NCBI GenBank assembly: GCA_009838075.1
Contig: VXSG01000057.1
Span: 1 to 36,554, forward strand
Length of the DNA stretch: 36,554 bases
Direction of reading: 5' to 3'
DNA from: Boseongicola sp. SB0665_bin_10
GTDB lineage: Bacteria > Pseudomonadota > Alphaproteobacteria > Rhodobacterales > Rhodobacteraceae
Part shown: positions 5,677-27,656 of the stretch, piece after piece
How positions within the stretch are numbered: position 1 is the first letter of the stretch
How the letters are laid out: each line of letters starts with the position of its first letter
Made by a program: the position numbers and the translations under genes
The notes under the pieces: generated by a model
What the model was told of the DNA's origin: nothing
Databases searched by the model: none
Seen by the model: the letters and a program-made list of their open reading frames with translations, nothing else

Positions 5677-5686
5677 CGCACCAACC

Positions 5687-8802: not shown

Positions 8803-9164
8803 CTGCGCAACTCCGAAACCTCGGCGACGTCAACTGGCACTGCATCATGTGCCCGCAGCCCTGACGCGAAGAACATCGAATCAATGGCCGTTGATGGCAT
8901 GATCCAAGCTGAATTGCAATTCGGCGGACAGCGAGACAGCGAGTCCCGAAGAATTTCTTTTTGTTCATTATCAATCTGTTGCGTGGCAGTGACGGATTTT
9001 CCTCCGGCGGGCATCCGCCGAGGCCGACATGCTTCGCGCGGCATGCAGACACATCGCCCAGCCGCAAGAATCGCGGTGGCCGGCGTCAGGATGATCGCGA
9101 CGCTGTCACGATCGGACACGATCCTGGCCGCACCGGCGGCGGAACGAAAGGTGCGGATGCGGGG
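8803..9164. promoter_or_regulatory. Divergent intergenic region between transporter operon and precursor 1
   Basis: No gene is visible. An AT-rich island at about 8955-8985 (TTTCTTTTTGTTCATTATCA) stands out in otherwise GC-rich DNA and is the best place for the leftward transporter promoter. A GC-rich hairpin lies at 9001-9023 (arms CCTCCGGCGG and CCGCCGAGG, 4-nt loop), whose function I cannot tell. Confidence 0.35.
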
Positions 9165-9205
9165 TTGAAAGTGCCAGGGCGACCGGATAGATTCGGAGTC
9201 CATAC
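9165..9205 (+). promoter_or_regulatory. Promoter block of precursor 1, shared with precursor 2
   Basis: TTGAAA at 9165-9170, GGGCGACCGGATA at 9177-9189 and CATAC at 9201-9205 recur with identical spacing upstream of the second precursor (TTGATA 23965, same 13-mer 23977, CATAC 24001). With a 17-nt spacer the -10 would be TAGATT at 9188-9193, but the conserved 13-mer could instead be an operator. The function is inferred; the shared sequence is seen directly. Confidence 0.55.
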
Positions 9206-9230
9206 TGACCCAAAAACAAGAGGTGTGGCC

Positions 9231-9506
9231 ATGGATTGGCAATCGTTCGCAGAAACGCCCCTGCAGTCGGCGGAAGACATGCGCCGTCAGATCACGGACA
9301 GGGCCGTCAGCGACGGGGAGTTCCGTAGCCTTTTGGTTTCGAGCCCCAAGAATGCAATCTCCCAGGAACTGGGCGTGGACCTTCCTGATGACATCAACGT
9401 CGTGGTCCACGAAAGCGATGCTCAGACCCTCCACCTGTCCCTCCCCGTCAGCGAGATCGGGGAAGAGCAGCTTGAGGCGATCGCGGCAGGCCGCTGCTGC
9501 TGCTGA
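9231..9506 (+). CDS. NHLP-family RiPP precursor peptide 1 (core Arg-Cys-Cys-Cys)
   Basis: A 91-aa precursor. The leader resembles the nitrile hydratase alpha subunit: 'FRSLLVSSPKNAISQELG' followed by an 'LPDDINVVVHESDAQTLHLS' segment, as in NHLP leaders. It ends in LEAIAAG-RCCC. The usual double-glycine site corresponds to Ala-Gly here, so the predicted core is the tetrapeptide RCCC. A strong site AGAGGTG lies 6 nt before the ATG; the open frame extends upstream but that part is not conserved in copy 2. Six leader residues differ from copy 2 (29, 36, 41, 44, 53, 58), while residues 59-91 are identical despite six silent base changes. It is the first gene of the rightward operon. It should be recognised by the E1-YcaO protein and cleaved by the C39 transporter. 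The exact cleavage point is inferred. Confidence 0.92.
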   Translation: MDWQSFAETPLQSAEDMRRQITDRAVSDGEFRSLLVSSPKNAISQELGVDLPDDINVVVHESDAQTLHLSLPVSEIGEEQLEAIAAGRCCC

Positions 9507-9516
9507 AAACAAGATT

Positions 9517-9553
9517 CCGGACTCCCCTGATGGAGACCCCGCGGGGGAGCCGG
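9517..9553 (+). terminator. Hairpin after precursor 1 (attenuator-like)
   Basis: CCGG-A-CTCCCC (9517-9527) pairs with GGGGAGCCGG (9544-9553): a 10-bp stem with one bulged A and a 16-nt loop. No good U-run follows, so it may act as a partial terminator or 3' stabiliser that keeps precursor mRNA more abundant than that of the enzymes downstream. Confidence 0.45.
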
Positions 9554-9625
9554 AGATTCGTTGGCTCCTTTGGCCGCGCGGCGGCCGACGAACACTGAAC
9601 GGGGTGGCACGTTTCGGAGATCGGC

Positions 9626-12046
9626 ATGGCGGACAGTGGAACGCTTCATGATTCTCTGAACGCAGGCGGGAAGATCGGAGGAGGCGCTCCGTCCGAACTG
9701 TCGTTCTTCAAGGCCATTCCCTACTTTTCCTCGATCGCCATCTTTCCATTTGTCGCCGTGGCGGCGTTGTACGGAGGATGGTGGCTGGCAGCACCGTTCG
9801 TCTTTCTGTGGCTTGTCGACTTTTTCGACACCGCACTGGGTACGGACGAGATAAATTTCAACCCTAACCAGCAGAACAGCCAGTTGTTCTGGTACAAGCT
9901 GGCGGTGTGGTGCTGGGTGGCAATCTACCCGATAGCGTTCATTTTCGCGTTCCGGCAAGTCTTCGTGGCTGACCATCTTGCCCTTTGGGAAGACGTCCTG
10001 ATCGTGCTGGCCTTGGGGGGCATGGCCCGACTGACGCTCAATGTCGGCCACGACATGATGCATCGTCGCACGATGCCGGAACGCCGCATCGGCGAAATCG
10101 TGATGGCTTCCGTTTCCTTTCCGCAGGAAGTGACCGAGCACGTTCTTGTCCACCACGCCCACATCGGCACGCCCAAGGACGCCGTATCGGCGCCAAAGGG
10201 CCAGGGTTTCTGGCAGTACCTCCCCCAATCCGTGTTCCGCAGCTACAAGGACACCTGGATCGTGGAACGGGACCGCCTGGCCCGCCGCCGCCTGCCGGTC
10301 TGGCACCACACGAACCCGGTCTGGCGCTACGTTCTTGAAACCGCCGCCTGGTATGCGCTGGCTTACTGGATCGGCGGGGTCTACGGCTTGCTGGTTTTCG
10401 CCGCCATCTGCGCCATGGGAATATTCCAGCTGCGGATGGTCGATTACATCCAGCACTACGGATTGCAGCGCGTGCGCCTTCCCGGCGGCCGTTTCGAACG
10501 CGTGCGCCCGCGACATTCATGGAGCGTCGCCTACAAGCTGCCCAACTGGTTCTACTACAACGCGCAGCGCCACGCCGACCACCACATGTCCGCGACCCGG
10601 CTTTACCCTCTGCTGCAGCATTCCGGGCCAGACGAAGCGCCGCAGCTTCCGGGAAGCTACTCGGAGATGGGCAACCTCGTCCTCCATCCAAAGCGCTGGT
10701 TCAAGAAGATGGATCCGCTGGTCGACCAATGGCGCGCGCATTTCTATCCCGAGATCGATGATTGGCGCGCCTACGACAGCGCCGCATACCGAGCGCGCCC
10801 GGACGCGTTCGAAGAGATAGACGAGATTTGTCGTGCGGCACCGGATCTTGCGGATTGGATAAACCGCGACCCGGGCTTGCTCGATGGCCTCGAGAGTCGC
10901 GAATTCACGGATCTCGACCTGCCGGACGGATTCGGACCCGACACGGCGTTCGAGACCTTGGCACGCCGTGGCCTTGCACGCGTCTACTGGACGCATGAAC
11001 TCGACGTCGCCGAGATGCGGGCGAGGATCGCCGACGTTCCTGTTCGAGACGTTCAGGACGCGATCGAGGCCGTGCGAAACTGGTCGAACGACAAGGTCTT
11101 TCAGGTATCTGTTCACGTGTTGCGCGGCAACCTGTCGCCGGGCGAGGCCGGGACGGCGCTGTCCAACATCGCGGAAGCCACGGTCAGCGCCGTGCTGTCC
11201 GCCGTCAGTGAGGACTTTGCTCATCTGCGTCCTGACGAAGGGATCGTGGTTGCGATGCTTGGCGACCTGGCAAGCTGCGACGCCGTGTTCCAGGCCGAAC
11301 TGGACGTGTTGCTCCTGCATGAGGGAAAGCGCACGAAGAAACACGACGCCATGTTTCGCCGTTTCCGGGAAGCGTTGCAGGTCCTGTCACGAGACAACCT
11401 GCTCCTTGCCCCGATTCCGCCGCGGAGCGAGGAACCGCGGCCCGCCGAATCCCTGGCCGACTTCTCGCAGAGGCTCAAGACCGCAGCGCCAGGCGGAGAA
11501 GCGCTGGACCTCATCCGGGCGCGTCGCGTCTTCACTTGCGGAAATGCGGAGATCGGCGGGCGATTTGACGAAGCTCGGCTCGAAATATTGCGCCGCAGCA
11601 ACGCGCGTGACGCGGCGATTGCCGAATTGGGCCCCAGCGTGCCGACGCGCAACGCGGAGTCGGACTCGCTGTCATCCGTCCTCGATGCGGCCGGCGGCTA
11701 CAGGGACGTCGAATTGGCGGCACGCCACCTGCAGCTAACCCATGCCGCCACGACCCCCGCGATTCTCGCCCCCGAGTCGGTTTCCGTCTTTCGAATTGCC
11801 GGAGAGCGTGGGACGGTGCCCACCGATGTCGCAGCCCGTCTGGCGGCCGCCGCCGAGCTCTGGAGGGATTTGCGTGGCATCCTGCGACTGGTCGGAGAGC
11901 ATGGCGGGTCCGTCGACACGGCATCCGGAACACAAAGGGCCGTTGTGGCGCGTGCCTGTGGCGAAGACAGTTTCGACGCGCTGACCGCCAGCGTCCGGAA
12001 GACCGCAACCGCTGCTGCATCTGGCATCCATGAACTGCGTGGCTGA
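9626..12046 (+). CDS. AlkB-like membrane di-iron hydroxylase fused to a degenerate GlnE-like adenylyltransferase domain
   Basis: An 806-aa two-part protein. Residues about 30-390 match alkane hydroxylase-type integral membrane di-iron enzymes: several membrane segments and the histidine boxes 'GHDMMHRR' (His142, His146), 'EHVLVHHAH' (His172, His176, His177), 'DYIQHYGL' and 'QRHADHH' (His316, His319, His320). Residues about 393-806 follow the C-terminal half of glutamine synthetase adenylyltransferase GlnE: 'FQVSVHVLRGNLSPGEAGTA', then 'LDLIRARRV', 'GGYRDVELAARHLQLTHA' and 'ELWRDLRGILRL'. The GlnE 'GSDLDL' motif is 'QAELDV' (556-561), and the 'EVDMRLRPSG' stretch is absent, so transferase activity is doubtful. 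The hydroxylase could oxidise the peptide or a lipid; the GlnE-like part may be a binding module. It is the first enzyme gene after precursor 1. Confidence 0.82.
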   Translation: MADSGTLHDSLNAGGKIGGGAPSELSFFKAIPYFSSIAIFPFVAVAALYGGWWLAAPFVFLWLVDFFDTALGTDEINFNPNQQNSQLFWYKLAVWCWVAIYPIAFIFAFRQVFVADHLALWEDVLIVLALGGMARLTLNVGHDMMHRRTMPERRIGEIVMASVSFPQEVTEHVLVHHAHIGTPKDAVSAPKGQGFWQYLPQSVFRSYKDTWIVERDRLARRRLPVWHHTNPVWRYVLETAAWYALAYWIGGVYGLLVFAAICAMGIFQLRMVDYIQHYGLQRVRLPGGRFERVRPRHSWSVAYKLPNWFYYNAQRHADHHMSATRLYPLLQHSGPDEAPQLPGSYSEMGNLVLHPKRWFKKMDPLVDQWRAHFYPEIDDWRAYDSAAYRARPDAFEEIDEICRAAPDLADWINRDPGLLDGLESREFTDLDLPDGFGPDTAFETLARRGLARVYWTHELDVAEMRARIADVPVRDVQDAIEAVRNWSNDKVFQVSVHVLRGNLSPGEAGTALSNIAEATVSAVLSAVSEDFAHLRPDEGIVVAMLGDLASCDAVFQAELDVLLLHEGKRTKKHDAMFRRFREALQVLSRDNLLLAPIPPRSEEPRPAESLADFSQRLKTAAPGGEALDLIRARRVFTCGNAEIGGRFDEARLEILRRSNARDAAIAELGPSVPTRNAESDSLSSVLDAAGGYRDVELAARHLQLTHAATTPAILAPESVSVFRIAGERGTVPTDVAARLAAAAELWRDLRGILRLVGEHGGSVDTASGTQRAVVARACGEDSFDALTASVRKTATAAASGIHELRG

Positions 12047-12318
12047 AAGCCGGCAACCCGAGAACGACCAAGGAGCCGGGGCGGCCAATATGCGCTGCAC
12101 GCAGATTCCGAAACCGCGCCAGCGGTCGAGTTCCCTGCCTCGCTCTCGAAATGTGACTGCAATTCAATCGGCAAATCGATCGCGAGTTTAGGGTTGAACG
12201 ACCGCCTGTTGACTGGCAGTTGAAGCACCGGGGTTTCTGCACGTGTCGAGAATCACTGCCTTGCATTTCTTTGGTCCACCCATCGCGCATCGGCCCGTCA
12301 TTCCAAGGGCTTCCAGTC

Positions 12319-13428
12319 ATGGCTAATTCCCGATTCCAAAGGCGCTTCGAGGAACTCTTGGCCGTTGCCGACATTCGCATTGGCGGTGATCGGCCTTGGG
12401 ACATGCAAGTGCACCGCGAGGAAGCTTTCGCGAAGTTCTTTGCGTATGGATCCTTGGGGATGGGCGAAAGCTACATGGATGGCTGGTGGGACTGCGATCA
12501 ACTCGACGAGCTGGTCAGCCGCGCCAGTGGTGCAGATCTCCAGAAGAAGATGCGTCCGTCGGACCTGTTGCTTGCAGTGCAGGCGCGATTGATGGATCCG
12601 ATGGGCGGCCGTCGCGGTTCCCGGGAAGGCGAACGCCACTACGAGCTTGGCCGGGAGTTCTATCGCCGCATGCTCGACAAGCGCATGATCTACAGTTGCG
12701 GCTACTGGAAGGACGCAGCGACCCTGGATGAGGCCCAGGAGCACAAGCTGGACCTGATGGCCCGCAAACTGCGACTCGAGCCGGGCATGAGAGTGCTCGA
12801 CATCGGCTGCGGTTGGGGCGGGTCAATCCACTACCTTGCGGAACGCTACGGCGTTTCGGGCATGGCCGTGACCATATCCCCCGATCAGTATGAGGTGGCC
12901 CGGGAGTTGTGCAGGGGCCTGCCGGTGGAAATTCGGCTGCAGGATTATCGAAAGGTCGACGAGCGGTTCGACTGCAGCTATTCGATTGACATGCTCGGCC
13001 ACGTCGGACGCCGAAACTACCGGGCTTACATGGAAGCCGTGAAACGCAACCTCCGCCCCCGTGGATTGCACCTGGTGCAAACCGCGGGCAGCAGCAACAG
13101 CACGGTGAAAGCGGATCCCTGGGTCAACCGGTACATTTTTCCCGGTGGCCACATTCCCTCGCCGAAACAGGTCACCGAGGCCGCGGAGGGCGTGCTTGTC
13201 CTGGAAGATTGGCACAGCTTCACCCAGGATTATGACCGCACTTTCATGTGCTGGCATGCCAATCTTCCCTCCGCTTGGGAGAGTCTGGACGGCGGCCCTG
13301 ACGACCGGCTGAAGCGCATGTGGAGTTACTATCTTCAGAGCTTCGCCGGGGTTTTCCGGTCCGGCGCCAGCCAGCTCTGGCAGGTCGTGTTCTCCAGTGC
13401 GGGCCCGGGTCCGGACTATTTCCGCTAG
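12319..13428 (+). CDS. Cyclopropane-fatty-acid-synthase-like methyltransferase lacking bicarbonate ligands
   Basis: A 369-aa SAM-dependent enzyme very like E. coli Cfa along its whole length: 'SLGMGESYMDGWWDCD', 'MIYSCGYWKDA', SAM motif 'VLDIGCGWGG' (159-168), 'WVNRYIFPGG', 'DYDRTFMCW' and the C-terminal 'SQLWQVVFS'. In E. coli Cfa a bicarbonate that acts as the base is held by Cys139, Glu239, His266, Ile268 and Tyr317. Here Cys127 and Tyr305 are kept, but Glu239 is Gly227 ('MLGHVG'), His266 is Gln254 and Ile268 is Ala256 ('VQTAG'). That suggests a different methyl transfer, for example on the peptide. I start at the ATG at 12319, which aligns with the Cfa N-terminus; 272 bp without a clear gene precede it. 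The stop is directly followed by the GTG of the next gene. Confidence 0.88.
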   Translation: MANSRFQRRFEELLAVADIRIGGDRPWDMQVHREEAFAKFFAYGSLGMGESYMDGWWDCDQLDELVSRASGADLQKKMRPSDLLLAVQARLMDPMGGRRGSREGERHYELGREFYRRMLDKRMIYSCGYWKDAATLDEAQEHKLDLMARKLRLEPGMRVLDIGCGWGGSIHYLAERYGVSGMAVTISPDQYEVARELCRGLPVEIRLQDYRKVDERFDCSYSIDMLGHVGRRNYRAYMEAVKRNLRPRGLHLVQTAGSSNSTVKADPWVNRYIFPGGHIPSPKQVTEAAEGVLVLEDWHSFTQDYDRTFMCWHANLPSAWESLDGGPDDRLKRMWSYYLQSFAGVFRSGASQLWQVVFSSAGPGPDYFR

Positions 13429-15771
13429 GTGCATCCGCAATTGTCCGCCACACCGCAGCCAATGCCTGTTCCGCAAAGGGTCGTCCGGAAGACCGCTGAA
13501 GACACGGGTCTCGTTGAAAGGCCGACGCTCGCACCGCATTTCGGATTCCACGCGATTGACGACCGGCAGGTATTCCTGGTCTCCGAAACCGTCAACACGT
13601 TGCTCCACGGGCAAATCCATCCCGATCTGCTGCCGCTTCTCAACGGTCGCCACACATATTCGGAGATCGTCGCCAGCCTGGCCGGAAAGCACCCGGAAGC
13701 AAGCGTCCGGACGGCGCTGGTCTCGCTGGCGTCCAAGGGATATGTCGTGTCAGGCGAACACGCTCTGGAAACTGGACTGGCGGCGTTCTGGACCTCGCTG
13801 GGTGCCTCGCCCCGATTTGCCGAGGAACGCCTCGCAAATTCTCGCGTGGCGATTGCCGGCAGCGCCGGCAGCTTCGCCGAGCGGCTTGCCTCACTGGGCG
13901 CGGCGGTCACCGATGACCTGGGTGCCGCCGCAATCTCCGTCGTCTTCTGCAACGACTATCTGGACGAGCGGCACGCCGAGATCAATCTGCGGCATGTCGC
14001 GTCCAACAGGCCGTGGATGCTGGTAAAGCCCGGCGGCCTGAAGCCACTGTTCGGCCCGGTGTTCCGCCCTGCGGCGCACGGCCCATGCTGGGCATGTCTT
14101 GCCTATCGCCTGCGCGGCCACCAGGAAATCCACAACTTCCTCCGCAACGTGACCGACGGAGACATCGCCCTCGCTCCCAGGGCTGCCGCGCCGGCCAGCC
14201 AGGATGCGGTTCATGGCGTCGCTGCGGTCGAGCTCGTGAAATGGCTTGTGCTCGGCGAGGCGGCGTTCATTCATGAACAGGCGATCTCCCTCGACACCGT
14301 TGATCTCTCGCTCGCACACCACCCCGTGACGCGCAGGCCGCAATGCCTCGTCTGCGGCGACGGTGCGCTCCACCGCGCCGACCGTGAACCGGTTCCAGTC
14401 CGCCTGCAGAGAAGCCCGAAGAACCTTCGCAACAGCGGCGGGGTGCGCTCGGTCTCGCCAGAGGCGACCCTTGCGAAATATCGTCACCTGGTCGATCCAG
14501 TGGGTGGTGTGGTGACGTGGTTGAGACGCACGACCAGCGAATCCGATCCTTGGCTGCACGTCCACTGGGCCGGGAGCAACCTGGCGCTGAAGAACAGGGC
14601 GCTGAACGTGCTGCGTCTCAGCCTGCGGACCAAGAGTGCCGGCAAGGGCAGCACGCCTCGCCAGTCGGAGGCGAGCGCCCTTTGCGAGGCGCTCGAGCGC
14701 TATTGCGGCGCCTTTCACGGCGACGAGATCCGCTGTCGGAAACGATACGCGGACTTTGACTCCGACGGTTCCGAAGCCATCCATCCGAACAGCGTGCAAC
14801 TGTTCAGCGAAGCGCAGCTGGACGATGCGGACCGAATAAACGCAAGCGGCCATCCCTACAACGTGGTGCCGCCGCGCCTTGACCCGGATGCCGAGACGGA
14901 CTGGTCGCCGGTGTGGTCGCTTACAGGGGATTGCCCGCGATACCTTCCGACGTCCCTGCTCTACTACGGCGCATCGACTGACAATCGCAGGGTCAAGGAC
15001 TTCGTCGCGGATTCCAACGGTTGTGCGGCTGGAAACACGCTGGAGGAAGCGATACTGCAGGGATTCTTCGAACTGGTGGAACGCGACGCTTTCGCGGTCT
15101 GGTGGTACAACCAGTTGCGCATCCCGGAAGTGGACCTCGACAGCTTCGATGACGAATATCTGGCGATGGCGCGCGACTACTACCGCGCTCTGAACCGCGA
15201 CCTGTGGGTGCTTGATGTCACTGGAGATTTCGGAATTCCGGCCTTTGTCGCCCTGTCGCGCCGGACCGACAGGAAGCCTGAGGACATCATCTACGGCGCC
15301 GGGGCGCACATGGACCCCCATATCGCGCTCCTCCGCGCAGTGTGCGAGCTCAATCAGTTCCTGAACTGGGTCCAGGGCACGGGCCCTGGGGGTGCCGGCT
15401 ATCAGGTGGACGACCCGCAGTGCCTGGCGTGGTGGCGGCATGCGACAATCGAGAACCAGCCCTATCTTGTGCCCGCGCCCGACGCTTCGCCGCGAGGAAA
15501 GTCCAGTTACCCCGTCGTCGAAACCGACGATCTGCGGGACGATCTGGAACGATGCCGGGCCCTCGTTGAAGCCAAGGGCATGGAATTTCTCGTGCTTGAT
15601 CAGACCCGTCCAGACATCGGCATGCCGGTCGTGCGGGTCATTGTGCCGGGCATGCGTCACTATTGGGCACGTCTGGCGCCAGGGCGGCTGTTCGACGTCC
15701 CGGTCGAGATGGGATGGAAGGAGCGCTGCATCGCTGAAGCGGACGCCAACACTGCCCCGGTCATCGGTTGA
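13429..15771 (+). CDS. TOMM cyclodehydratase: E1-like leader-binding domain fused to YcaO
   Basis: A 780-aa fusion that should convert core cysteines to thiazolines using ATP. Residues about 30-110 look like the winged-helix RiPP recognition element that binds the leader ('LLPLLNGRHTYSEIVASLAG'). An E1/ThiF-like part follows with a zinc site of Cys220, Cys223, Cys306 and Cys309 ('CWAC', 'CLVC'). The YcaO domain spans about 350-780. Its ATP-site motifs are intact: 'SALCEALER' (416-424) and 'QGFFELVERDAF' (from 544). The C-terminus reads 'EADANTAPVIG', where many TOMM YcaO proteins end in a proline-rich PxPxP-like tail. GTG start, directly abutting the upstream stop, implies tight translational coupling. 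No SagB-type dehydrogenase gene accompanies it. Confidence 0.93.
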   Translation: MHPQLSATPQPMPVPQRVVRKTAEDTGLVERPTLAPHFGFHAIDDRQVFLVSETVNTLLHGQIHPDLLPLLNGRHTYSEIVASLAGKHPEASVRTALVSLASKGYVVSGEHALETGLAAFWTSLGASPRFAEERLANSRVAIAGSAGSFAERLASLGAAVTDDLGAAAISVVFCNDYLDERHAEINLRHVASNRPWMLVKPGGLKPLFGPVFRPAAHGPCWACLAYRLRGHQEIHNFLRNVTDGDIALAPRAAAPASQDAVHGVAAVELVKWLVLGEAAFIHEQAISLDTVDLSLAHHPVTRRPQCLVCGDGALHRADREPVPVRLQRSPKNLRNSGGVRSVSPEATLAKYRHLVDPVGGVVTWLRRTTSESDPWLHVHWAGSNLALKNRALNVLRLSLRTKSAGKGSTPRQSEASALCEALERYCGAFHGDEIRCRKRYADFDSDGSEAIHPNSVQLFSEAQLDDADRINASGHPYNVVPPRLDPDAETDWSPVWSLTGDCPRYLPTSLLYYGASTDNRRVKDFVADSNGCAAGNTLEEAILQGFFELVERDAFAVWWYNQLRIPEVDLDSFDDEYLAMARDYYRALNRDLWVLDVTGDFGIPAFVALSRRTDRKPEDIIYGAGAHMDPHIALLRAVCELNQFLNWVQGTGPGGAGYQVDDPQCLAWWRHATIENQPYLVPAPDASPRGKSSYPVVETDDLRDDLERCRALVEAKGMEFLVLDQTRPDIGMPVVRVIVPGMRHYWARLAPGRLFDVPVEMGWKERCIAEADANTAPVIG

Positions 15772-15875
15772 AGTCATGCACGGAACGGCATGACATTTCC
15801 GCCTGCATGTGAGATTTGTTCATCCGTCGCCCGTTCAGCATTGACCCGCGACGGGCATCTTGCGGAGACTGGCCG

Positions 15876-17003
15876 ATGAGCGTCAACGAGGACTGGGCCC
15901 GTACAGAGAAGTGCCTGCCTTTCGTGGCGGATTCCATGGGCCATCTGTTGGCGCGGATGCGGCCACACATTTCCGCTCGAATTCTCGACGGACCGGCACT
16001 ATGGCGACTGCTCGACTGCGCGAGCGACCTTCCGGTTACCGCGGCGGCATTTCCATTTGGGATCGAGGTTCCGCTGCATGTGCCGGAGCCACGGTCGAAT
16101 TTCGGCATTTCGCTTGTCGGAGACAGTCTGACGGCTAGACACTTCCAGCAAGGGCGAAATGCGGAGGACACCGAGAAGTCGTCTGCTGGTGTTGCATGGA
16201 TACTGGACGAGACGGACCGGGAGACGTCAACTCTGCGCCGCGTCATTGGCAGGAAGATGGGGCTCGAATTCGAGATCAGCCTCGCGGAAAGCCCGTCGCG
16301 GACGGACCCGGGCATTTTCCTGTTTCCAGCAGGCGATGTGCTCGAGGGCGGCGCGGGCCGGTTCCAGGAACTGGGTGCGGTACACGACGCGCTGGTCTTC
16401 GCCGGCGGCTGGAACCCGGATGTCGCGGAACGCCGCGAACTCGATCGTCTCTATGCGGCGCTGCCGCCAAAACGGCGCATCAGGAGGGTCGGCGCGTTCC
16501 CGTCGCAGGAAAGGACGATCCGGACGACCGCAACAGATTTCAGGACGGCGGTCGAAGTGATGGCATATCTCGAGCGCGCGGGCTGGCCAGGTGACGCCTC
16601 GGCGGTTGGCGAGGTGGTTTCGTTCTTCGATGAATACAAGACCTTCGTCTATCTCGGTCTCCAATTCGACGTCACTGCGAATGGGCTCGGGCCAAGCTTG
16701 GGCCTTAGCTTCTATGCCCATGAATCGGACTGGCTCAAGGACATGGAGTGCTGGATGCCCTTGATCGAAGCCATCGGCGAGCGGAAGCTGGCCCTCCCCG
16801 GGAAGCTGGAGGCGCTGGCGAGGTGGTCGAACGGGACGGCGACCATGTATTCCGAGGCCGGACCAATCATTTTGGTTCGCGGCATACACCACGTTGAAAT
16901 GTCGATCATCGGTGACAATGTCGGGCCGGTGAATGGTTACGTTTTCTTCCTCATGATGTCCACGCGGCCTGGCAAGGAAACGGCGGGCCGGGGCTCACGA
17001 TAG
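15876..17003 (+). CDS. Uncharacterised cluster protein, paralogue A
   Basis: A 375-aa protein that I do not recognise by function. It is clearly paralogous to the proteins at 22398-23516 and 21103-22251. Shared features: start 'EDWARTEKC', 'AAFPFGIEVPL', 'FGISLVG', 'RDPGIF'-like 'TDPGIFLFPAGDVL', 'LERAGWPG', 'LGLQFDVTANGLGPSLGLSF' and a C-terminal 'RGIHHVEMSII...YVFFLM'. No signal peptide or membrane helix is obvious. The start at 15876 is fixed by alignment with paralogue C, whose protein begins at the same point; a longer frame to 15816 is not conserved. It follows the YcaO gene by 104 bp in the same direction. I recall similar hypothetical proteins with an 'RGIxHxK' ending near other NHLP-type clusters, but know no activity. 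Confidence 0.85.
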   Translation: MSVNEDWARTEKCLPFVADSMGHLLARMRPHISARILDGPALWRLLDCASDLPVTAAAFPFGIEVPLHVPEPRSNFGISLVGDSLTARHFQQGRNAEDTEKSSAGVAWILDETDRETSTLRRVIGRKMGLEFEISLAESPSRTDPGIFLFPAGDVLEGGAGRFQELGAVHDALVFAGGWNPDVAERRELDRLYAALPPKRRIRRVGAFPSQERTIRTTATDFRTAVEVMAYLERAGWPGDASAVGEVVSFFDEYKTFVYLGLQFDVTANGLGPSLGLSFYAHESDWLKDMECWMPLIEAIGERKLALPGKLEALARWSNGTATMYSEAGPIILVRGIHHVEMSIIGDNVGPVNGYVFFLMMSTRPGKETAGRGSR

Positions 17004-17163
17004 AGGGACAGATGCACGCCAGCATGGATTCCCGTCAAGAAAGACCCATGACAATCGTCAACGAATGTCACCGGGTCGGTACGGCCTGGGCGCAGGCAGG
17101 ATCGGCTGACTGTTCCAGCGCTCCGGCCGTCCACGCTCGCGGCGGCAGGATTCGGGTGGCGGC

Positions 17164-18360
17164 GTGAACGAACTCGACATTCCTTCGGCCTATCGGGACG
17201 GATACCGCAAGGCGGCCATCCTCAACCCGGACATCGCCACGAACTATGTCGCGAGCACGACTGTCGGCGACCCGCTCGCCGATGCCGTCGTTGAGGCGTT
17301 GGCATCGCTCCCGGCCCAGGAAATCAGTCGCGTAGTGAACGCCTGCATGGACCGGAATGCGGGGGCCCTCCCAAACACGCCGTCGGCGCTGAACGACCTC
17401 ATCGAATCCCTTAGTGTCGTTCCGACGTGGTTCGACGACGACGCGGTCCTGCCTGGTCGCCTGGCCCTGCACCGACACATGGACCTGTTCATCATCGGGC
17501 TCTTCTACGTCAGCCTGCAAAACTTCGACAGCCTGATGAGCCGGGTGTTTTTCTTGACGGGCGAGGGCACGACCCAACAAGGACTGCGGGTCATCCGGCA
17601 GAACATGCGATACTTGACCCAGACGCTCATTCTTCCGCAGGCGCTGGATCCCTGGGAGGACGGCTGGAAGTTCTCCATTCGGATCCGCCTGGTGCACGCA
17701 CGCGTCCGGCGGGGCCTAAGCAATTCGGGGCAGTGGAGCGTGATCAAGTACGGCGTGCCCGTCAGCGCTGCAAACATGGCGCTCACATCAGCCAATTTCT
17801 CCGCATCGCTAATCCGAAATGTTGATCGACTTGGAGCGAACCTGAGCGATTGCGAACGCTCCAGCATAATGCAGATATGGCGTTACGCGTCCTGGTTGAT
17901 GGGAACTCCCGATACGCTGCTGTGCGAAGGCGACGAGGATGCGACTTCCGAACTGTCCAGGATCGGCCATGTCTGCGAACCATCGGCCGACGCAATCACG
18001 ACCGTGATAGCGAACGCAATGATTGCTCTCCTGCCGGAAGTCGCAAAGTTGACTGATCCGGCCAAGAAACGGGCCATGATCGAACATGGGTATCAGCTCT
18101 CCCGTGCGCTTCTTGGCGACGCGTTCGCCGACCGGCTCGAATTTCCCCACAAGCGGACAGCCGGTCTGTTGCCCTTGATGCGCCTGAGGAATCGTCTGCA
18201 GAAGATGCCTGGCCACCTTGCTCCAGCCATTGCGCGGCTTTGGAAGGATGATCCGTTCCTGCAACTGCTTGACGCCGCCATGATCGCAAGTCTCCGCGGA
18301 CAGTTGCCAGATGAATTGAAGGCCGCGAAGGCGCGTGCAGCCGCCAAAAAGCGGTCGTGA
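17164..18360 (+). CDS. DUF2236 / MpaB-type (latex-clearing-protein-like) oxygenase
   Basis: A 398-aa protein of the DUF2236 family, which includes fungal MpaB, rubber oxygenase Lcp and related b-type haem oxygenases. Visible family features: 'RIRLVHARVRRGL' with the conserved His, 'GQWSVIKYGVPVSAANMALT', and 'QIWRYASWLMGTPDTLL'. It is mostly helical with no signal peptide. The GTG at 17164 is the first start in the frame; the protein ends in a basic Lys/Arg-rich tail. It lies 160 bp after paralogue A on the same strand. In this setting it may oxidise the modified peptide, for example ring oxidation or side-chain hydroxylation; that role is inference, as the family has widely differing substrates. 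Confidence 0.8.
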   Translation: MNELDIPSAYRDGYRKAAILNPDIATNYVASTTVGDPLADAVVEALASLPAQEISRVVNACMDRNAGALPNTPSALNDLIESLSVVPTWFDDDAVLPGRLALHRHMDLFIIGLFYVSLQNFDSLMSRVFFLTGEGTTQQGLRVIRQNMRYLTQTLILPQALDPWEDGWKFSIRIRLVHARVRRGLSNSGQWSVIKYGVPVSAANMALTSANFSASLIRNVDRLGANLSDCERSSIMQIWRYASWLMGTPDTLLCEGDEDATSELSRIGHVCEPSADAITTVIANAMIALLPEVAKLTDPAKKRAMIEHGYQLSRALLGDAFADRLEFPHKRTAGLLPLMRLRNRLQKMPGHLAPAIARLWKDDPFLQLLDAAMIASLRGQLPDELKAAKARAAAKKRS

Positions 18361-18893
18361 TCGTCGTGGCCGGCGCATAGGCGGGACGCCTCGCCTTTCC
18401 AGGGTTTCATGCCTTTCCGGTCGCAGGCATCGCGACAGCGACCAATGTCATCGCCCCCGTCGGGGCTGGCATCATGGACAGGGAAGGTCCGCCAGGGGAT
18501 TCGAGGAGAGGTGAATTTCCAATCTGGACAGGATGGTCGGCGTGTCGGGTGTCCGTGGAGGACTGCCGGCCCGGATGCGAGGCTTCCTGGATTCGCCGCC
18601 GATCGACGGCCGGGAACGGGAGCATCGGCAATGCGTGATCGAGTTTCCCCGCCCGTTGCATCGCTACGGGCTCGCCAATCAGTTCGCGGTTCCCGGAATC
18701 GAACGGTCGTTCTGCTACCGATGATGATGCAAAGGCATCGTCCGCAGAAGACGCATGGCCGCCTACCATGGAGGCTCGGACGGGTCTTCGAAATTGAGCC
18801 CTTGCTGCGACTGCGCGATGACAGGCGATTGCGCTTGACGCGCAATTTCGGGATTGGCTAAGTCAGGAACGAAATTTTCGCGAGGTGGTGGCC
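18361..18893. other. Gap before methyltransferase B
   Basis: About 530 bp with several open frames on both strands, the longest near 18409-18861 (+) and 18407-18769 (-). None resembles a known family or has a convincing ribosome site. A weak GC-rich hairpin followed by CCTTT lies at about 18380-18400. Confidence 0.4.
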
Positions 18894-18980
18894 ATGGTGG
18901 TCGGTTCTGCAAAATATGGCGCAACGCAGGCTGCCGAATCCATGTTGTTGGCGCCGCCATGCATGCGGGAGAGCCGGTGA
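18894..18980 (+). CDS. Possible 28-aa leader ORF coupled to methyltransferase B
   Basis: ATG at 18894 preceded by GAGGTGGTGGCC, which closely resembles the ribosome sites of both precursor genes (GAGGTGTGGCC and GAGGTGCAGCC). It encodes MVVGSAKYGATQ and ends in CMRESR. Its TGA overlaps an in-frame GTG of the methyltransferase gene as GTGA, an arrangement typical of translational coupling. No homologue is known to me; it may be chance. Confidence 0.25.
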   Translation: MVVGSAKYGATQAAESMLLAPPCMRESR

Positions 18981-19948
18981 CTGCGGGGCGGTCAAGCCAC
19001 CCGGTTGACGGCTGCGGCGAAGACAGTGCCGACCGGCAGGACGGAACGCACCCGGGAACCGAAGCACGGTCGACCGCGGCAGGCGACGCACATGGAAAAG
19101 AGGTCGGGGACCACTATGACAGACTGACCGAGTCATTCTACCTGAACTGGAGCCGGGACCACATTCACCTCGGAGTGTTCGAGCCGGGGGAGTGCCCTGA
19201 ACCCGGCGAGATGAACTGGCAGTCGAAAGGTCTCGCCCGCGCCCTTATACGCACGGTGGAGCTTACCGTTGCTCCCGCCGGAATCGAGGCGCATCATCGC
19301 GTGGTTGACGCCGGGTGCGGTGTGGGCGGCACGGCCATCCTGCTCGCAAAGCAGGTGGGATGCTCAGTCACCGGCGTTTCCAACAGCGCCGTGCACCTGA
19401 AGCTCGCGGAAGAGAAAGCGGTCGCCGAAGGCGTGTCGGAACTGGTTCGCTTCGAATACGCCGATTGCTCACGCAGACTCCCCTTTCCAGACGACTCCAT
19501 CGACGTGGTCGTCAACGTCGAAAGTGCGTGCCATTACCACGACCGTTACCAATTCCTGCGCGAAGTCCGCAGGGTACTCAAGCCCGGCGGGCGACTGGCG
19601 GCGATGGACTGGATGGCGCCTGACGGCCTGACCTCGGAGCAGCATGACGAATTCCTCCAGCCGATGCTCTCCGCCTATGTCATCAAGTCCCTCGACAGTC
19701 CGTCCTCATACTCGGAGAAACTGCGCAGGGCGGGCCTCGAAATTCTGGAATTCGAGGGATTCGGCGGCAAGGAGATGGACAACCTGAAACTCATCAAGAA
19801 CAGCCGCGACAACTTTTGCTTCTCGCTGCTTGCCGGCGCCAAGTCGCCGGAGTTTCTTGCTCTTTTTGAACGAATGCGGACCTTTTACCTCGCATGGTCG
19901 AACGGCGCCTTCGAAACTCGGCGATACTGTGCCGTCAAGCCGGGCTGA
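18977..19948 (+). CDS. SAM-dependent methyltransferase B (class I)
   Basis: A 323-aa class I methyltransferase if it starts at the GTG at 18977 (329 aa from the ATG at 18959). SAM motif I is 'VVDAGCGVGG' (109-118), motif II region 'VVVNVESACHYHDR', and 'VRRVLKPGGRLAAMDWMAP' follows. The N-terminal 'VGDHYDRLTESFYLNWSRDH' resembles tocopherol, sterol and small-molecule C- or N-methyltransferases. The first 40 residues are polar and low in complexity, so the start is uncertain. It lies 277 bp before methyltransferase C, which has the same fold but modest similarity. It presumably tailors the peptide; the target atom cannot be told. Confidence 0.82.
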   Translation: MTAGRSSHPVDGCGEDSADRQDGTHPGTEARSTAAGDAHGKEVGDHYDRLTESFYLNWSRDHIHLGVFEPGECPEPGEMNWQSKGLARALIRTVELTVAPAGIEAHHRVVDAGCGVGGTAILLAKQVGCSVTGVSNSAVHLKLAEEKAVAEGVSELVRFEYADCSRRLPFPDDSIDVVVNVESACHYHDRYQFLREVRRVLKPGGRLAAMDWMAPDGLTSEQHDEFLQPMLSAYVIKSLDSPSSYSEKLRRAGLEILEFEGFGGKEMDNLKLIKNSRDNFCFSLLAGAKSPEFLALFERMRTFYLAWSNGAFETRRYCAVKPG

Positions 19949-20225
19949 CTTCCGCTTGACCGGCGGCAGTGAGCGGTTTCGGATGCAGATGGGAAACGCT
20001 CGCGCACGAATTGGCCGGAAGCAAGGAACTTGACGATTTGCACCGGTTGCATCCTGACGCCATGCATCTTTCGGCGGTCGCCGATGCCTTCCACTTTCTC
20101 TGCAAGCGCCTGCGCAACGGGGCAGCCAGCTGCGACCGTCATCACTCTCGCCAGGTCAAGCGATTGCATGTTCGGTTCTTGCTGCCGCTCTTGACGATGG
20201 CAGGTCGGCGGCGCAACATTGATGC

Positions 20226-21083
20226 ATGAGCCTTGGGACGGAGTCCGAACTGGCGCGGGACGCTTCGGTTACCGCCTGCTACAACGACATGACAAAGCGG
20301 CTTCTTCAGGTGAATGGCGACCTGAGGATGATCCACTTTGGGCTATGGGGTCCCGGTGTCAAATCCGAAGAGGGCGCCCAAATGCGCGCCGTGCACGCTT
20401 TGGTCGAGGGATGCGGGCTTGGCCCGGGAAAGCGGGTTCTGGATGCAGGTTGCGGCCTCGGCGGACCGGCGGTCGCGCTGGCAAGAAAGTATGGCGTGCA
20501 GGTCACCGGCCTGACCATTTGCGAACCGCACGTCGCTGAGGCGACAGAATTCGCGGCAAGGCGTCGCGTAGATCATCTCGTCGAATTCCGGCATGGCGAT
20601 TTCATGGAAATGCCCTTCCCCGAAGACTCTTTCGACATTGTGATCAATCACGAGACCTTCTGCTACGCGCCGGACAAGCATGCCTATCTGCGAGGCGCGA
20701 TCAGGGTGCTCAAGCCAGGCGGATCGTGCCGCATGGCAGAAGGCCTGCTAAGCGGCAAGCCGATGTCAGAAGCCCAGAAGGCGGTCAATGCCGGCGTGCA
20801 CAGGGGTTGGCGCATACAGCCGCTCGTCGAGTGTCAGGAAGCCCTTGCCATGATGGAGCAGACAGGCTTCGAGAACATATGGGAGCGCAACCTGGACGCG
20901 GAAGTTGCGCCGTCCACCAAGGGTCTCAGCAACTGGTGGAAGATGCGTGTATTCCTGACGCCCCCGCCGAAGGCGGAGGATTTGACCTACCATGAGTTCA
21001 TGCAGGCCACCGTCGGCTTCGATCAGGGGCTGAGGGAAGGCGTCTTTACCTACCGCCTGATATCGGGAACAAAACCAGGATAG
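20226..21083 (+). CDS. SAM-dependent methyltransferase C (class I)
   Basis: A 285-aa methyltransferase. SAM motif I 'VLDAGCGLGG' sits at 71-80, followed by 'GVQVTGLTICEPHV', 'FRHGDFMEMPFPEDSFDIV' and 'AIRVLKPGGSCRMAEG'. The N-terminal 'VTACYNDMTKRLLQVNGDL' and 'IHFGLWGP' resemble the sterol/tocopherol/sarcosine methyltransferase group. A weak TTGACG at 20191 is the only promoter-like element in the preceding 277 bp, which shows no gene. It is the last gene of the rightward stretch and converges on paralogue B with only 19 bp between stops. The substrate is unknown; peptide tailoring is inferred from position. Confidence 0.85.
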   Translation: MSLGTESELARDASVTACYNDMTKRLLQVNGDLRMIHFGLWGPGVKSEEGAQMRAVHALVEGCGLGPGKRVLDAGCGLGGPAVALARKYGVQVTGLTICEPHVAEATEFAARRRVDHLVEFRHGDFMEMPFPEDSFDIVINHETFCYAPDKHAYLRGAIRVLKPGGSCRMAEGLLSGKPMSEAQKAVNAGVHRGWRIQPLVECQEALAMMEQTGFENIWERNLDAEVAPSTKGLSNWWKMRVFLTPPPKAEDLTYHEFMQATVGFDQGLREGVFTYRLISGTKPG

Positions 21084-21102
21084 CGCCAGCCTCCGGATTG
21101 CC

Positions 21103-22251
21103 CTAGCTGGAGTCCCTTGCGCGGTGCGGCCAGCGCGACAGCAGAAGGAACACGTGGGCATTTATGCGCCTCCCGCCTTCATCGTCCGCGACAATCGCAA
21201 AATGGTGAATCCGCTGAAGAAGCAGGAGAAGCCCGGAACGGCCGAGAAACGGTTTGGCCGAAAATGCCCATTCGTTGAGTTCCGGCAGTTTTCCGGGGTC
21301 GGCGAAGCCTTCGTCATGCAGGCCGTCCATCAAATCCGTCCAGCAACGCTTGTCCCTGAACCATCCTTCGTCGTCATGAATCGTGGCCGCCGAAAAGATC
21401 TGAAGTTCCAGCGGCGGCCTGACGCCTGCCGCGGCAACGTCAAACTGAACCCCGAGTTGCATTCCGGCTAGCGCGCCCCGCGCCTTGAGGCGTGCCAGCG
21501 CCTCGCGGGCTGCCGATGCACGCCGGTGCCAACCAGCGCGGTCCAGGAAAGACATGACGCCTTCCAGCCCGGAAAATCCCAACACGGTAAGTCGAAACGC
21601 ACCTTCCCTGGCGGGCGAGACGCCTATGGCGCCAATGCGCGTGTCGGGCTCCATTGCGAGGAACACACGTTCCTGACCGAGACGCAGATCCTCGCTTGGT
21701 CGCCGGCCGGCGGCTGTGGCCATGGCGTCAAGCGCCAGCCTGAAGTCCTCCAGGCGCCCGCTGGCGTGGCCGCCCGCCAGCGTCGCTCGAACGGGATAAA
21801 GCAAGGCGCTGGACTCCACTTGCCCGGGTTGGCCGGCATCGACGCTGTAGTGCAGCAAAACCCTGTCGCCTGCCACGCGACGCACGGGAGATCCCTTCCG
21901 ACCCGTCTCCTCAAGAAGAGAAGCGCCGACGACGGCCGCCGGGCCAGCATCGGCGGAGAGCTTCGCTGCCTTGACACGCGCTGCCGATTGGGTGCCGCCC
22001 AGCAGCGACACATCCATACAGGCTGAAGGTGGTGAATTGTCGATCGGGAGCCCCAGCCACAAAGGAAAGCCGGCCAGCGTCGGTGGCAGGTCGTGCGCGT
22101 GCGCCATCAGCTCTTCCAGCTGACGGCCGCAGAACAGCGTCGGGGAAAAGGTATGTCTCATCCGGCCAAGAAGCTCTCCCAGAGTGCCCGCTTCCCTGGC
22201 GAGGCAGTCTTCGTTTGCGGCCCATTCGTCTTCGAAGTTCATTCCATCCAA
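21103..22251 (-). CDS. Uncharacterised cluster protein, paralogue B
   Basis: A 382-aa protein, the most divergent of the three paralogues. It keeps the shared layout: 'EDEWAANEDCL' at the start, 'AGFPLWLGLPI', 'VSLLGG', 'LDRAGWHRR', 'LGVQFDVAAAGVRPPLELQIF' and the end 'QRIHHFAIVADDE...INAHVFLLLS'. The conserved 'RGIHH' has become 'QRIHH', and the 'DPGIFLYP' stretch is reduced to 'SSALLYPV'. A start at 22242 (MNFEDEW) is also possible. It is read in the same direction as paralogue C, 146 bp behind it. Function unknown. Confidence 0.82.
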   Translation of the reverse strand: MDGMNFEDEWAANEDCLAREAGTLGELLGRMRHTFSPTLFCGRQLEELMAHAHDLPPTLAGFPLWLGLPIDNSPPSACMDVSLLGGTQSAARVKAAKLSADAGPAAVVGASLLEETGRKGSPVRRVAGDRVLLHYSVDAGQPGQVESSALLYPVRATLAGGHASGRLEDFRLALDAMATAAGRRPSEDLRLGQERVFLAMEPDTRIGAIGVSPAREGAFRLTVLGFSGLEGVMSFLDRAGWHRRASAAREALARLKARGALAGMQLGVQFDVAAAGVRPPLELQIFSAATIHDDEGWFRDKRCWTDLMDGLHDEGFADPGKLPELNEWAFSAKPFLGRSGLLLLLQRIHHFAIVADDEGGRRINAHVFLLLSRWPHRARDSS

Positions 22252-22397
22252 CCTGTCCAGGCGTTCCGGAGCGCCGGAACGCGCCGCTCATGTCGCCGTG
22301 CCTTCAATCCGGCGCATCACCACCAACAAGGCGCTGCGGACGACCGCCGTTCGGCTGCCCTTGCGTTGCATTTCAGGGATCGAAGCGTTGCCGCCAG

Positions 22398-23516
22398 TTA
22401 CTTCGAACGGGCACCGCCCCTGGGCCGAGCGCACGTCATCAGGAAGAAAACATAGGCCTTTGCCTCTTCGACCCGGTCCTCGGTGATCCCCAGCTTGACG
22501 TGATGTATACCGCGCACGAGCGCGATCGGACCAGACCTTGCGATCAGGGTCGTCGCGCCCGCAGACCGATTGGAGAGATCCTCCAGTTTGTCGGAGAAGG
22601 CGTACCCCTGCTCGTCGATGCCGTCGATAAGCGCCTTCCAGAATCGAACGTGCCTCAGCCACTCCTGCTCCCGAGCGAAGAAACTCAGTCCCAGCCTCGG
22701 GCCGACGCCGTCCCTCGTGACGTCGAAATGAACGCCCAGATAGGCAAAGGCATTGCGCTCCTCGAAGAACGACAGGACGTCGTGGACGGCCTTGGGCTTT
22801 CCCGGCCAGCCGGCGCGCTGAAGGAACGCCTCAACGCACCGCGCGGTCCTGAAGCTTGTCACCGCGATCCTCATTGTCCTGTCGCGCGACGGAAAGGTGC
22901 CGAATGCCCTGATCAGCGTGTCCGGCTGCAACGTCCGGTACAGCCGCTCCAGTTCCCGGCGTTCCGCAGGATCCGACGTCCAGCCGCCCGCACGCGTGAC
23001 CGCGTCGTGAACTGCGGTCAGTTCCGGGAAAGCGTCGCCGCCGCCTGCCAGCACATCGCCAACTGGATAGAGGAATATCCCTGGATCGGGCCGTTCACCG
23101 CCAGGCGTCGGGTCGATATCGTATTCGAGCAGCATTTTCCGGCCCACGACATGGCGAAGCGGTGAATCTGCGCGGTCGGTCGCCTCAAGCAGTTCGGCGA
23201 GCGCCGCCGTCGATTTGCCGGCACCGCCCAACCGCTTCGCCTCGTGATAGCCGGCCGCCGTCCTGCTGCCGCCAACAAGCGTGACACCAAAATCCGCGAC
23301 CGGCCTCGCATCCTGCAACGGAATCTCGAACCCGAAAGGAAACGCGCCCATCGTGGCCGGCGCTTCGGCAGCCCGTTCCAGCAGCTGATTCCATCCTGCG
23401 CCATTGACGAGGCGGGTGGAAATCCAGGGCCTGAGAAGCGCCAAGAGCTGTCCCATAGAGGCCGCGACAAGCTCGAGTCGTTCCTCGGTATAGGCCCAGT
23501 CTTCTGGTGCGGTCAT
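22398..23516 (-). CDS. Uncharacterised cluster protein, paralogue C
   Basis: A 372-aa protein close to paralogue A. Shared segments: 'EDWAYTEERL', 'GAFPFGFEIPL', 'FGVTLVGGS', 'LRHVVGRKM', 'PDPGIFLYPVGDVL', 'ERRELERLY', 'LQRAGWPG', 'LGVHFDVTRDGVGPRLGLSF' and the C-terminal 'LVRGIHHVKLGIT...AKAYVFFLM'. The conserved Arg, the His pair and the acidic 'FDVT' stretch could be functional. It is probably cytoplasmic. It heads a two-gene leftward unit, divergent from precursor 2 across a 513-bp region. Function unknown. Confidence 0.85.
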   Translation of the reverse strand: MTAPEDWAYTEERLELVAASMGQLLALLRPWISTRLVNGAGWNQLLERAAEAPATMGAFPFGFEIPLQDARPVADFGVTLVGGSRTAAGYHEAKRLGGAGKSTAALAELLEATDRADSPLRHVVGRKMLLEYDIDPTPGGERPDPGIFLYPVGDVLAGGGDAFPELTAVHDAVTRAGGWTSDPAERRELERLYRTLQPDTLIRAFGTFPSRDRTMRIAVTSFRTARCVEAFLQRAGWPGKPKAVHDVLSFFEERNAFAYLGVHFDVTRDGVGPRLGLSFFAREQEWLRHVRFWKALIDGIDEQGYAFSDKLEDLSNRSAGATTLIARSGPIALVRGIHHVKLGITEDRVEEAKAYVFFLMTCARPRGGARSK

Positions 23517-23964
23517 GAACTGGCATTACCTGCACAGTTCAAGCGGCGCAAGAATCCTTCCCGTCATTTTTCCCGCGGAGGTCGCTTGCCGTGTCCGGCG
23601 TATGCGTCACCATATGTCAACCGACGAGCGGACGGGATCAGGCATTGCGTTTCAGACATCAGAAATTTGGGGGGCCACGGACCGGGTCCGAGTCAATGCG
23701 CAACGCAGATTACGTCCGGTTCTCTCGAATTCACCAATCGCAGACTTGATCTGGCGGCCCTCCGTCACGGCGTCAGAATCGACTGCCCCTCAACAGCGAA
23801 TACATGCACGAGGGGGAGGTCGGCAGTTTGAGGCAACGGCATCGGTCTCACAACCTGCGCCAGCCAGGCGGCATTTCACCGGTGGCAAGTCACGTCACCT
23901 GACCTCCGGATGCGCTGGCTATCCACGCAAATCCCGTCCACACCGAGCCCTGGATCGGGAGGGA
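23517..23964. promoter_or_regulatory. Divergent intergenic region between paralogue C and precursor 2
   Basis: About 450 bp with no credible gene. It must hold the leftward promoter for paralogues C and B. Short AT-richer runs occur at about 23563-23573 (GTCATTTTTCC) and near 23655-23670. I see no clear operator besides the promoter block next to the precursor. Confidence 0.35.
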
Positions 23965-24005
23965 TTGATATTGATCGGGCGACCGGATAAGGGAAGATTT
24001 CATAC
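23965..24005 (+). promoter_or_regulatory. Promoter block of precursor 2
   Basis: TTGATA at 23965-23970, GGGCGACCGGATA at 23977-23989 and CATAC at 24001-24005 match the block before precursor 1 in sequence and spacing. The implied -10 (TAAGGG at 23988) is weak, so the 13-mer may itself be what a regulator reads. Confidence 0.55.
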
Positions 24006-24029
24006 CGCCTTGAAAAAAGAGGTGCAGCC

Positions 24030-24305
24030 ATGGATTGGCAATCGTTCGCAGAAACACCCCTGCAGTCGGCAGAGGACATGCGCCGTCAGATCACTGACAG
24101 GGCCGTCAGCGACGACGAGTTCCGGAGCCTCCTGCTGTCGAGCCCCAAGAGTGCAATTGCACAGGAACTGGGCGTGGACCTGCCAGAAGACATCAACGTC
24201 CTGGTCCACGAAAGCGATGCGCAGACCCTCCACCTGTCCCTTCCGGTCAGCGAGATCGGCGAAGAGCAGCTCGAGGCGATCGCGGCGGGCCGCTGCTGCT
24301 GCTAA
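24030..24305 (+). CDS. NHLP-family RiPP precursor peptide 2 (core Arg-Cys-Cys-Cys)
   Basis: A 91-aa near-copy of precursor 1 with 85 of 91 residues identical. Differences: Asp29, Leu36, Ser41, Ala44, Glu53 and Leu58. The final 33 residues, including AAG-RCCC, are identical, while their codons differ at six silent sites and the stop is TAA instead of TGA. AGAGGTG lies 6 nt before the ATG. It is 14.8 kb from copy 1, at the far end of the cluster, followed by a hairpin and the RND exporter gene. Keeping two copies with the same core suggests gene dosage or separate regulation rather than two products. Confidence 0.92.
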   Translation: MDWQSFAETPLQSAEDMRRQITDRAVSDDEFRSLLLSSPKSAIAQELGVDLPEDINVLVHESDAQTLHLSLPVSEIGEEQLEAIAAGRCCC

Positions 24306-24320
24306 GAGGCGGTTTTCCCG

Positions 24321-24348
24321 GCTCCCCGGCGGATTTGCAGCGGGGAGC
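24321..24348 (+). terminator. Hairpin after precursor 2
   Basis: GCTCCCCG (24321-24328) and CGGGGAGC (24341-24348) form a perfect 8-bp stem with a 12-nt loop, followed by TGATCTTTCA. The U-run is poor, so partial termination or mRNA protection before the RND gene is likelier than a full stop. Confidence 0.55.
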
Positions 24349-24513
24349 TGATCTTTCAATGGCCATTCCTGACGCTTCGGAGGCCAGCCGGGCGTGCGAT
24401 TCGATCTCGCTCGCGCGGATATCCGTCACTTCTGCTATGGAAACGGCTATGCGCCGGACAGCCTTGGCGACACCGCTAGGTCGGACGCATCATGAAGCAC
24501 GAGGGATCAGGTG

Positions 24514-26826: not shown

Positions 26827-27215
26827 CCGCCGCTTCACGGATGCACCGGACCGTCGGGCGCGCGCGGGCGCGTACGGACATGGCGCTTGTGCGGACCGTC
26901 GTCCGGATACGCGCGGGCAGCGGGTCGACGCGGTCTGGCGGGAATGCTGCAGGCGTTCGGGATCAAGGGTGCACGGACGACGCGGACCGGGCGCTTCGCC
27001 GGAGACCGGCACCGGACGCGTGAAGCGTGGCGCAGCCGGATGTCTGCCAGGCGTCGAGGCGCCGGTACAGGATTCTGGATGCACGCTGCGGAAAGTTCGC
27101 TTTGCCATGGCCCTCCACGTCACCGTGCAGAAATTCTTTGCGATCGCACGACATTTGCGCCAGACTGAAAAAAATGCCGCGAAGATGGCAGCATAGAGGC
27201 AGCAAAGAGGCAGTG
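26827..27215. other. Boundary gap between cluster and ftsB
   Basis: About 390 bp without a recognisable gene; very GC-rich at its left end (GGCGCGCGCGGGCGCG near 26857-26872) and with an A-run at about 27168-27174. Probably the right border of the peptide cluster and the promoter of ftsB. Confidence 0.45.
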
Positions 27216-27515: not shown

Positions 27516-27606
27516 CGCGGTCCGCGCAATCCTTGCAGCGGTTGCATGGCGGCTCTGCATGCATCAGCGACTTTTGCCCGTGCAATTCGGAAATTGCCGG
27601 TGTATG

Positions 27607-27630: not shown

Positions 27631-27656
27631 GCTCCCGAACAGGAAGGATCGCACCC

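Follow-up and report, generated by a model that had tools for sequence, protein, structure and literature searches.

Gene content of the locus

The window, by which we mean the whole analysed stretch of 36,554 nucleotides from Boseongicola sp. SB0665_bin_10, contains twin NHLP precursor genes lying on either side of a gene for an E1-YcaO cyclodehydratase, along with genes for candidate tailoring enzymes, transporters and three members of an orphan protein family (Table 1). The E1-YcaO is the sole YcaO match in the genome, which is 98.6% complete by a computed estimate, and no match to a SagB-type dehydrogenase was found there. The ABC1, ABC2 and HlyD proteins all score below their NCBIfam equivalog cut-offs.

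Table 1. Features of the window, numbered from its first nucleotide
Feature	Positions	Strand	Remarks
RCCC cassette, approximate extent	714..27120	.	DNA similarity to congener G767 lost on both sides
PPOX/HpnE-like FAD oxidoreductase	1073..2497	-	linked to RCCC branch
NHLM ABC2 transporter	2743..5730	-	661 bits, below equivalog cut-off 709.4
NHLM ABC1 transporter with C39 peptidase domain	5687..7903	-	819.4 bits, below equivalog cut-off 853.3; ORF to 8068
HlyD-type adaptor, NHLM type	7903..8802	-	87.4 bits, below cut-off 156.2
Precursor A, 91 aa	9231..9506	+	NHLP leader residues 1-87, core RCCC 88-91
AlkB-type diiron monooxygenase fused to GlnE-like domain (AlkB-GlnE)	9626..12046	+	
Cyclopropane-fatty-acid-synthase-like (CFA-like) methyltransferase	12319..13428	+	PRK11705 501.9 bits, cut-off 400; start codon picked by eye
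E1/RRE-YcaO cyclodehydratase (E1-YcaO)	13429..15771	+	TIGR03882, TIGR03604, PF02624
U1, orphan protein family, 375 aa	15876..17003	+	
MPAB/Lcp-type oxygenase	17164..18360	+	PF09995
SAM methyltransferase MT1	18854..19948	+	start approximate
SAM methyltransferase MT2	20226..21083	+	
U3, U1 paralogue	21103..22251	-	32% identical
U2, U1 paralogue	22398..23516	-	51% identical
Precursor B, 91 aa, twin of precursor A	24030..24305	+	core RCCC
MMPL-family RND transporter	24511..26826	+	

The twin precursors and their core

The ORF translations of both precursors end in LEAIAAGRCCC*, and against the NHLP leader profile TIGR03793 they score 61.1 and 62.1 bits (curated cut-off 50.9); positions, length, ends and leader family agree with a sequence-only reading of this DNA, which had described two 91-residue NHLP precursors ending in AAG-RCCC. 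The last of the profile's 77 positions aligns with the Gly that precedes RCCC (residue 87, counting the Met), which is also where the alignments of precursor A with 9cjx and 8tb1, two solved NHLP chains, end. In 8tb1, the aligned end is residue 85 of 91, directly followed by the TH1 hexapeptide, which stands there in place of the MprE7 core (part of PMC10858898). These boundaries, together with the comparison of relatives below, uphold the four-residue core that the earlier reading had placed behind the leader. Where that reading expected a Gly-Gly-type site, both precursors have Ala-Gly, at the last position of TIGR03793.

Twelve copies of the RCCC core, from ten loci including the window, are all identical, with leaders that are 48-94% identical to one another. 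The DNA of precursors A and B is 90.6% identical; their codons differ by 16 synonymous and six non-synonymous changes (dN 0.031, dS 0.380), giving a dN/dS of about 0.08. The identical cores and the synonymous bias of the twin differences rule out RCCC as a chance tail. The RCCC precursor is likewise twinned at locus L021, where the copies are 91.7% identical, and identity between the two genomes is 75.4-79.0%. That twins are closer within than between genomes points to independent duplication or to conversion keeping the copies alike.

Relatives of the E1-YcaO and the range of cores

The E1-YcaO scores 133.2 against TIGR03882 (cut-off 36.9) and 281.9 against TIGR03604 (cut-off 219.25), and a winged helix (PF21084) is present in it. 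A YcaO scan of a species-genome collection yielded 42 loci, of which 36 come from MAGs (53-81% identical to the window protein) and six from Paenibacillaceae (26-29%). Short NHLP precursors turned up in 23 MAG loci, with cores ending in RCCC in nine (ten copies), LCCCW in ten, LCCCGI in two, and LCCCGL and LTCCGC in one each. In the LTCCGC core (L044:52-309), a Thr, itself a possible cyclisation residue, stands in place of the first Cys of the triple. The six Paenibacillaceae loci gave no NHLP match, and repeated looks gave no precursor in the other 13 MAG loci, 12 of which reach a contig end and one of which (L032) has full 10-kb flanks; because no flank exceeds 10 kb and clusters are often cut by a contig end, these absences are soft.

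LCCCW is reportedly also the core of SrpE, encoded with the YcaO SrpC and the brominase SrpI in the srp clusters that Nguyen et al. 2021 described from sponge microbiomes. The earlier reading's suggestion of a new ribosomal route to so small a product is therefore not supported, as this five-residue core was already published and is present in the relatives, including all seven congeners of the window genome. The same comparison bears on where the core begins. A mature product larger than RCCC, arising from a cut further upstream or from a modified precursor active on its leader, would fit the lack of Gly-Gly at the junction, and LEAIAAG is kept in 11 of 12 RCCC precursors (LEAVAAG in the twelfth), so that conservation alone cannot separate the leader end from the core. 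However, such a product is unlikely, given that the leader profile and the solved chains end at Gly87, that a C39 peptidase-transporter gene adjoins precursor A, that the residues around CCC vary (R or L before it; W, GI or GL after it in relatives) while Ala-Gly stays the same in all 26 aligned precursors, RCCC and relatives alike, and that the SrpE core is given as LCCCW in parts of PMC10286304 and PMC10858898.

A maximum-likelihood tree built from 34 YcaOs out of 37 (L050, L054 and L055 were left out) places all ten RCCC rows inside one 14-row clade with support 100/100. These rows span Pseudomonadota, Nitrospirota and Binatota; the remaining four rows of the clade (L022, L025, L035 and L051) are without a precursor on the available stretch. 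A label test on the tree gave five changes for RCCC rather than one, with the four precursor-less rows scored as a group of their own. More distant E1-YcaOs (36-42% identical) occur in five of 398 genomes, the window's own genome excluded; in these five, no other module was matched at E 1e-6 and no CCC precursor was found near the distant E1-YcaO. One weak NHLP-like ORF ending in NGCC was seen in this set, at L071. Among plasmids, four records matched, each at less than 60% identity. We infer that the relatives labelled CAR, RHO, IRC and APA correspond to the sponges Carteriospongia, Rhopaloeides, Ircinia and Aplysina named in part of PMC8163846, and that the window genome is likewise of sponge origin.

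Tailoring genes of the two branches

Among 24 precursor-bearing loci including the window (10 RCCC and 14 others), the PPOX-like gene is found in nine of the RCCC loci versus none of the others; the tenth, L028, starts 2.2 kb before the YcaO at a contig end. A full-length MPAB gene is present in five of the ten RCCC loci versus 0/14 others. Conversely, a Trp halogenase is found in five of ten LCCCW loci and the protein F9 in eight of ten, each versus none of the 14 others. Fisher tests on such counts overstate independence because the RCCC loci form a single clade. A tblastn search of the window with the L049 halogenase (E 1e-3) found no Trp halogenase. RCCC is thus a second branch without a halogenase, alongside the LCCCW branch.

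F9 (L048:15282-16595, minus strand) is a protein of about 435 residues, with an NHLP-leader-like N-terminus (34.2 bits against TIGR03793, below the cut-off) followed by about 360 further residues without a Pfam name. Its relatives (L031, L038, L042, L043, L049, L050, L053 and L077-L083) occur with LCCCW cores only; in L028, L036 and the window, it is matched over 57-78 residues of the leader-like part alone. F9 may represent a leader-like domain inside an enzyme.

AlkB-GlnE is shared by both branches. Its AlkB part resembles 8f6t (E 3.6e-53) and its GlnE-like part 3k7d (E 4e-4). It lies near the YcaO in 31 of the 36 MAG loci; because it is absent from the other five (L020, L022, L032, L035 and L050), including the RCCC locus L020, it may be non-essential. 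Across 28 proteins longer than 600 residues, out of 32 found, the His motifs of the AlkB part are at least 95% conserved. As no Asp reaches 95% conservation in residues 455-806 of these proteins, the nucleotidyltransferase-like part may be catalytically dead, serving in binding rather than catalysis. A family of long antisense ORFs (f15), which lies opposite AlkB-GlnE in L027, L028, L031 and L034 (tblastn), was rejected as an artefact.

The U proteins have no relative worth naming in PDB, Pfam or NCBIfam. Members of the family occur at 26 of 36 MAG loci, and a single one lies in a further NHLP cluster of the window's genome (L016:6316-7428).

The only full copy of the CFA-like gene among the relatives is in L025. 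N-terminal pieces alone align upstream of the YcaO in L021 (9786-10001, 72 residues) and L027 (9293-9889, 199 residues), and loss of this gene within the RCCC branch is possible. Such loss would be in keeping with a locus that is a decayed, non-functional remnant of an srp cluster. As a reading of the window this is highly improbable: the listed genes are open ORFs, the twins differ with the low dN/dS given above, and RCCC is conserved across three phyla.

A chromosomal site shared with congeners

This YcaO is present in all eight genomes of the genus, with the seven congeners being 58-60% identical to the window's. An LCCCW-ending precursor is found in each of the seven: six have it on the YcaO contig, and in G765 it lies next to the shared left-flank ORF, on a different contig; on the available stretches, F9 is seen in all seven and a halogenase in two. 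Window positions 49-713 and 27121-36493 match G767 at 88-92% DNA identity, where they flank an LCCCW-type cluster that lies between the left-flank ORF and pdhA, with its precursor just past that ORF. In G763, the LCCCW cluster abuts pdhA and the left-flank ORF is on another contig; in the other five congeners, the cluster and pdhA are on separate contigs or no close pdhA was found. In the window, it is the RCCC cassette that adjoins pdhA. The flank matches in G767 and the pdhA-adjacent cluster in G763 establish a shared site for the two kinds of cassette: the window's cassette sits where at least two congeners hold an LCCCW cluster.

Other NHLP genes of the genome

A second NHLP cluster (L016, contig C87:26001-44125) has a precursor ending in GG-WAPTSSSY, both NHLM transporters, a halogenase-like flavoprotein, a methyltransferase and the U protein noted above. 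Twin NHLP genes ending in LEAVAVALDGSCI lie on two contigs (L017:2347-2601 and L018:7550-7840); on the stretches available there, none of the YcaO, transporter or tailoring proteins of the window was matched. As substrates of the window YcaO, the NHLP genes of contigs C87 (with the ending just given), C73 and C74 (ending in LDGSCI) and C17 (resembling nitrile hydratase) were all dropped.

A proposed pathway

Taken from the sequence, the precursors, the leader end, the conserved core, the enzyme families, the YcaO clade and the shared site indicate that the locus is probably an azoline-forming proteusin (NHLP) RiPP cluster, a halogenase-less sister branch of srp with an RCCC core in two near-identical precursors. 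The chemical steps, their order and the cleavage point can be proposed as follows. The leader motif I(GEEQ)L would be bound by the E1-YcaO through its winged-helix (RRE-like) part; the motif corresponds to the L(X)4L reported to be needed for YcaO action on MprE7, of which Val and Phe variants were active, with no mention of Ile (part of PMC12455567). The E1-YcaO would then cyclodehydrate the three Cys in an ATP-dependent manner to yield Arg-(thiazoline)3 still on the leader, a first product with a predicted [M+H]+ of 430.1148. The core would next be modified, by oxidation or methylation, through AlkB-GlnE, which both branches have, together with the flavoenzyme linked to RCCC, the MPAB oxygenase and the methyltransferases. 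The C39 domain of ABC1 would cleave after Ala-Gly (Gly87), and the ABC/HlyD system, perhaps with the MMPL pump, would export the product.

The first step is proposed by analogy, because SrpC is reported to turn the three Cys of the SrpE LCCCW core into thiazolines, after which SrpI brominates the Trp (parts of PMC10286304 and PMC10858898). The published core likewise favours the view of the sequence-only reading that the three adjacent Cys are likely YcaO targets. The Cys might instead stay uncyclised, with metal binding or another change (by AlkB-GlnE or the flavoenzyme) in its place, or with only some of them acted on by the YcaO. A run of three Cys could coordinate a metal, the genome has no SagB-type dehydrogenase match, and SrpC modified LCCCW incompletely, to a mixture, when the two were co-expressed in E. 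coli (same parts of PMC10286304 and PMC10858898). We nevertheless hold this to be quite unlikely, considering that E1-YcaO cyclodehydratases act on Cys, that the genome's only YcaO sits between the twins, and that three thiazolines are reported for LCCCW.

Beyond the azoline-forming pathway itself, a bolder proposal, which we regard as conceivable though doubtful, is that the RCCC clusters make the smallest NHLP product proposed, a cationic Arg-tri-azol(in)e, that the PPOX-like protein is an azoline oxidase, and that the cassette is exchanged with that for brominated LCCCW. If so, AlkB-GlnE and the PPOX-like flavoenzyme would finish the tetrapeptide, with the latter replacing the missing SagB-type enzyme, and symbionts would swap RCCC and brominated LCCCW cassettes at a fixed site as alternative chemotypes.

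No RCCC peptide core was found in the open-licence literature among the matches listed. LCCCW already provides a precedent for three adjacent azolines on a very short NHLP core; the novelty, provisionally, seems to lie in the RCCC branch, in its set of enzymes and in the chromosomal site shared with LCCCW. The published sponge RiPP pathway is thereby widened from LCCCW to at least five core endings (RCCC, LCCCW, LCCCGI, LCCCGL and LTCCGC), in a group that mostly shares AlkB-GlnE and the orphan U family. RCCC offers a minimal substrate for the study of tandem thiazoline formation, and AlkB-GlnE, a candidate tailoring enzyme present in most of the group, is directly open to enzymology. The presence of two core types at one site within one genus also makes chemotype exchange between symbionts testable.

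Comparison with known systems

The closest likeness is to the srp clusters, which, judged from the published descriptions of SrpE and SrpC, share with the window an NHLP leader, a very short core that follows Ala-Gly and has three Cys in a row, and a nearby YcaO. The srp-like features themselves, LCCCW precursors and halogenase genes, occur in congeners that carry the 58-60% identical YcaOs. In contrast, the window has RCCC instead of LCCCW, no Trp, no halogenase match and two precursors, with PPOX-like and MPAB genes instead.

The mpr cluster of a methanotroph (MprE1-10, MprC, MprD) likewise combines NHLP leaders with YcaO azoline formation, and precursor A can be aligned with the leader in the MprE7 structures. 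On a chimera, MprC/MprD are reported to convert all three Cys to rings (parts of PMC10286304 and PMC10858898). On the other hand, mpr has ten precursors and an azoline oxidase, MprD, as described in part of PMC12455567, whereas the window genome is without a SagB-type match. NHLP-type families are described, in part of PMC4603692, as being without the PatA/G-like proteases of cyanobactins. The cyanobactin cyclodehydratases LynD and TruD are nonetheless related to the E1-YcaO over nearly its whole length (residues 34-778 for LynD, phmmer E 4e-164). Finally, tantazoles, mirabazoles and thiangazole are chains of adjacent thiazoline rings, and their likeness to the predicted RCCC product is a chemical one only.
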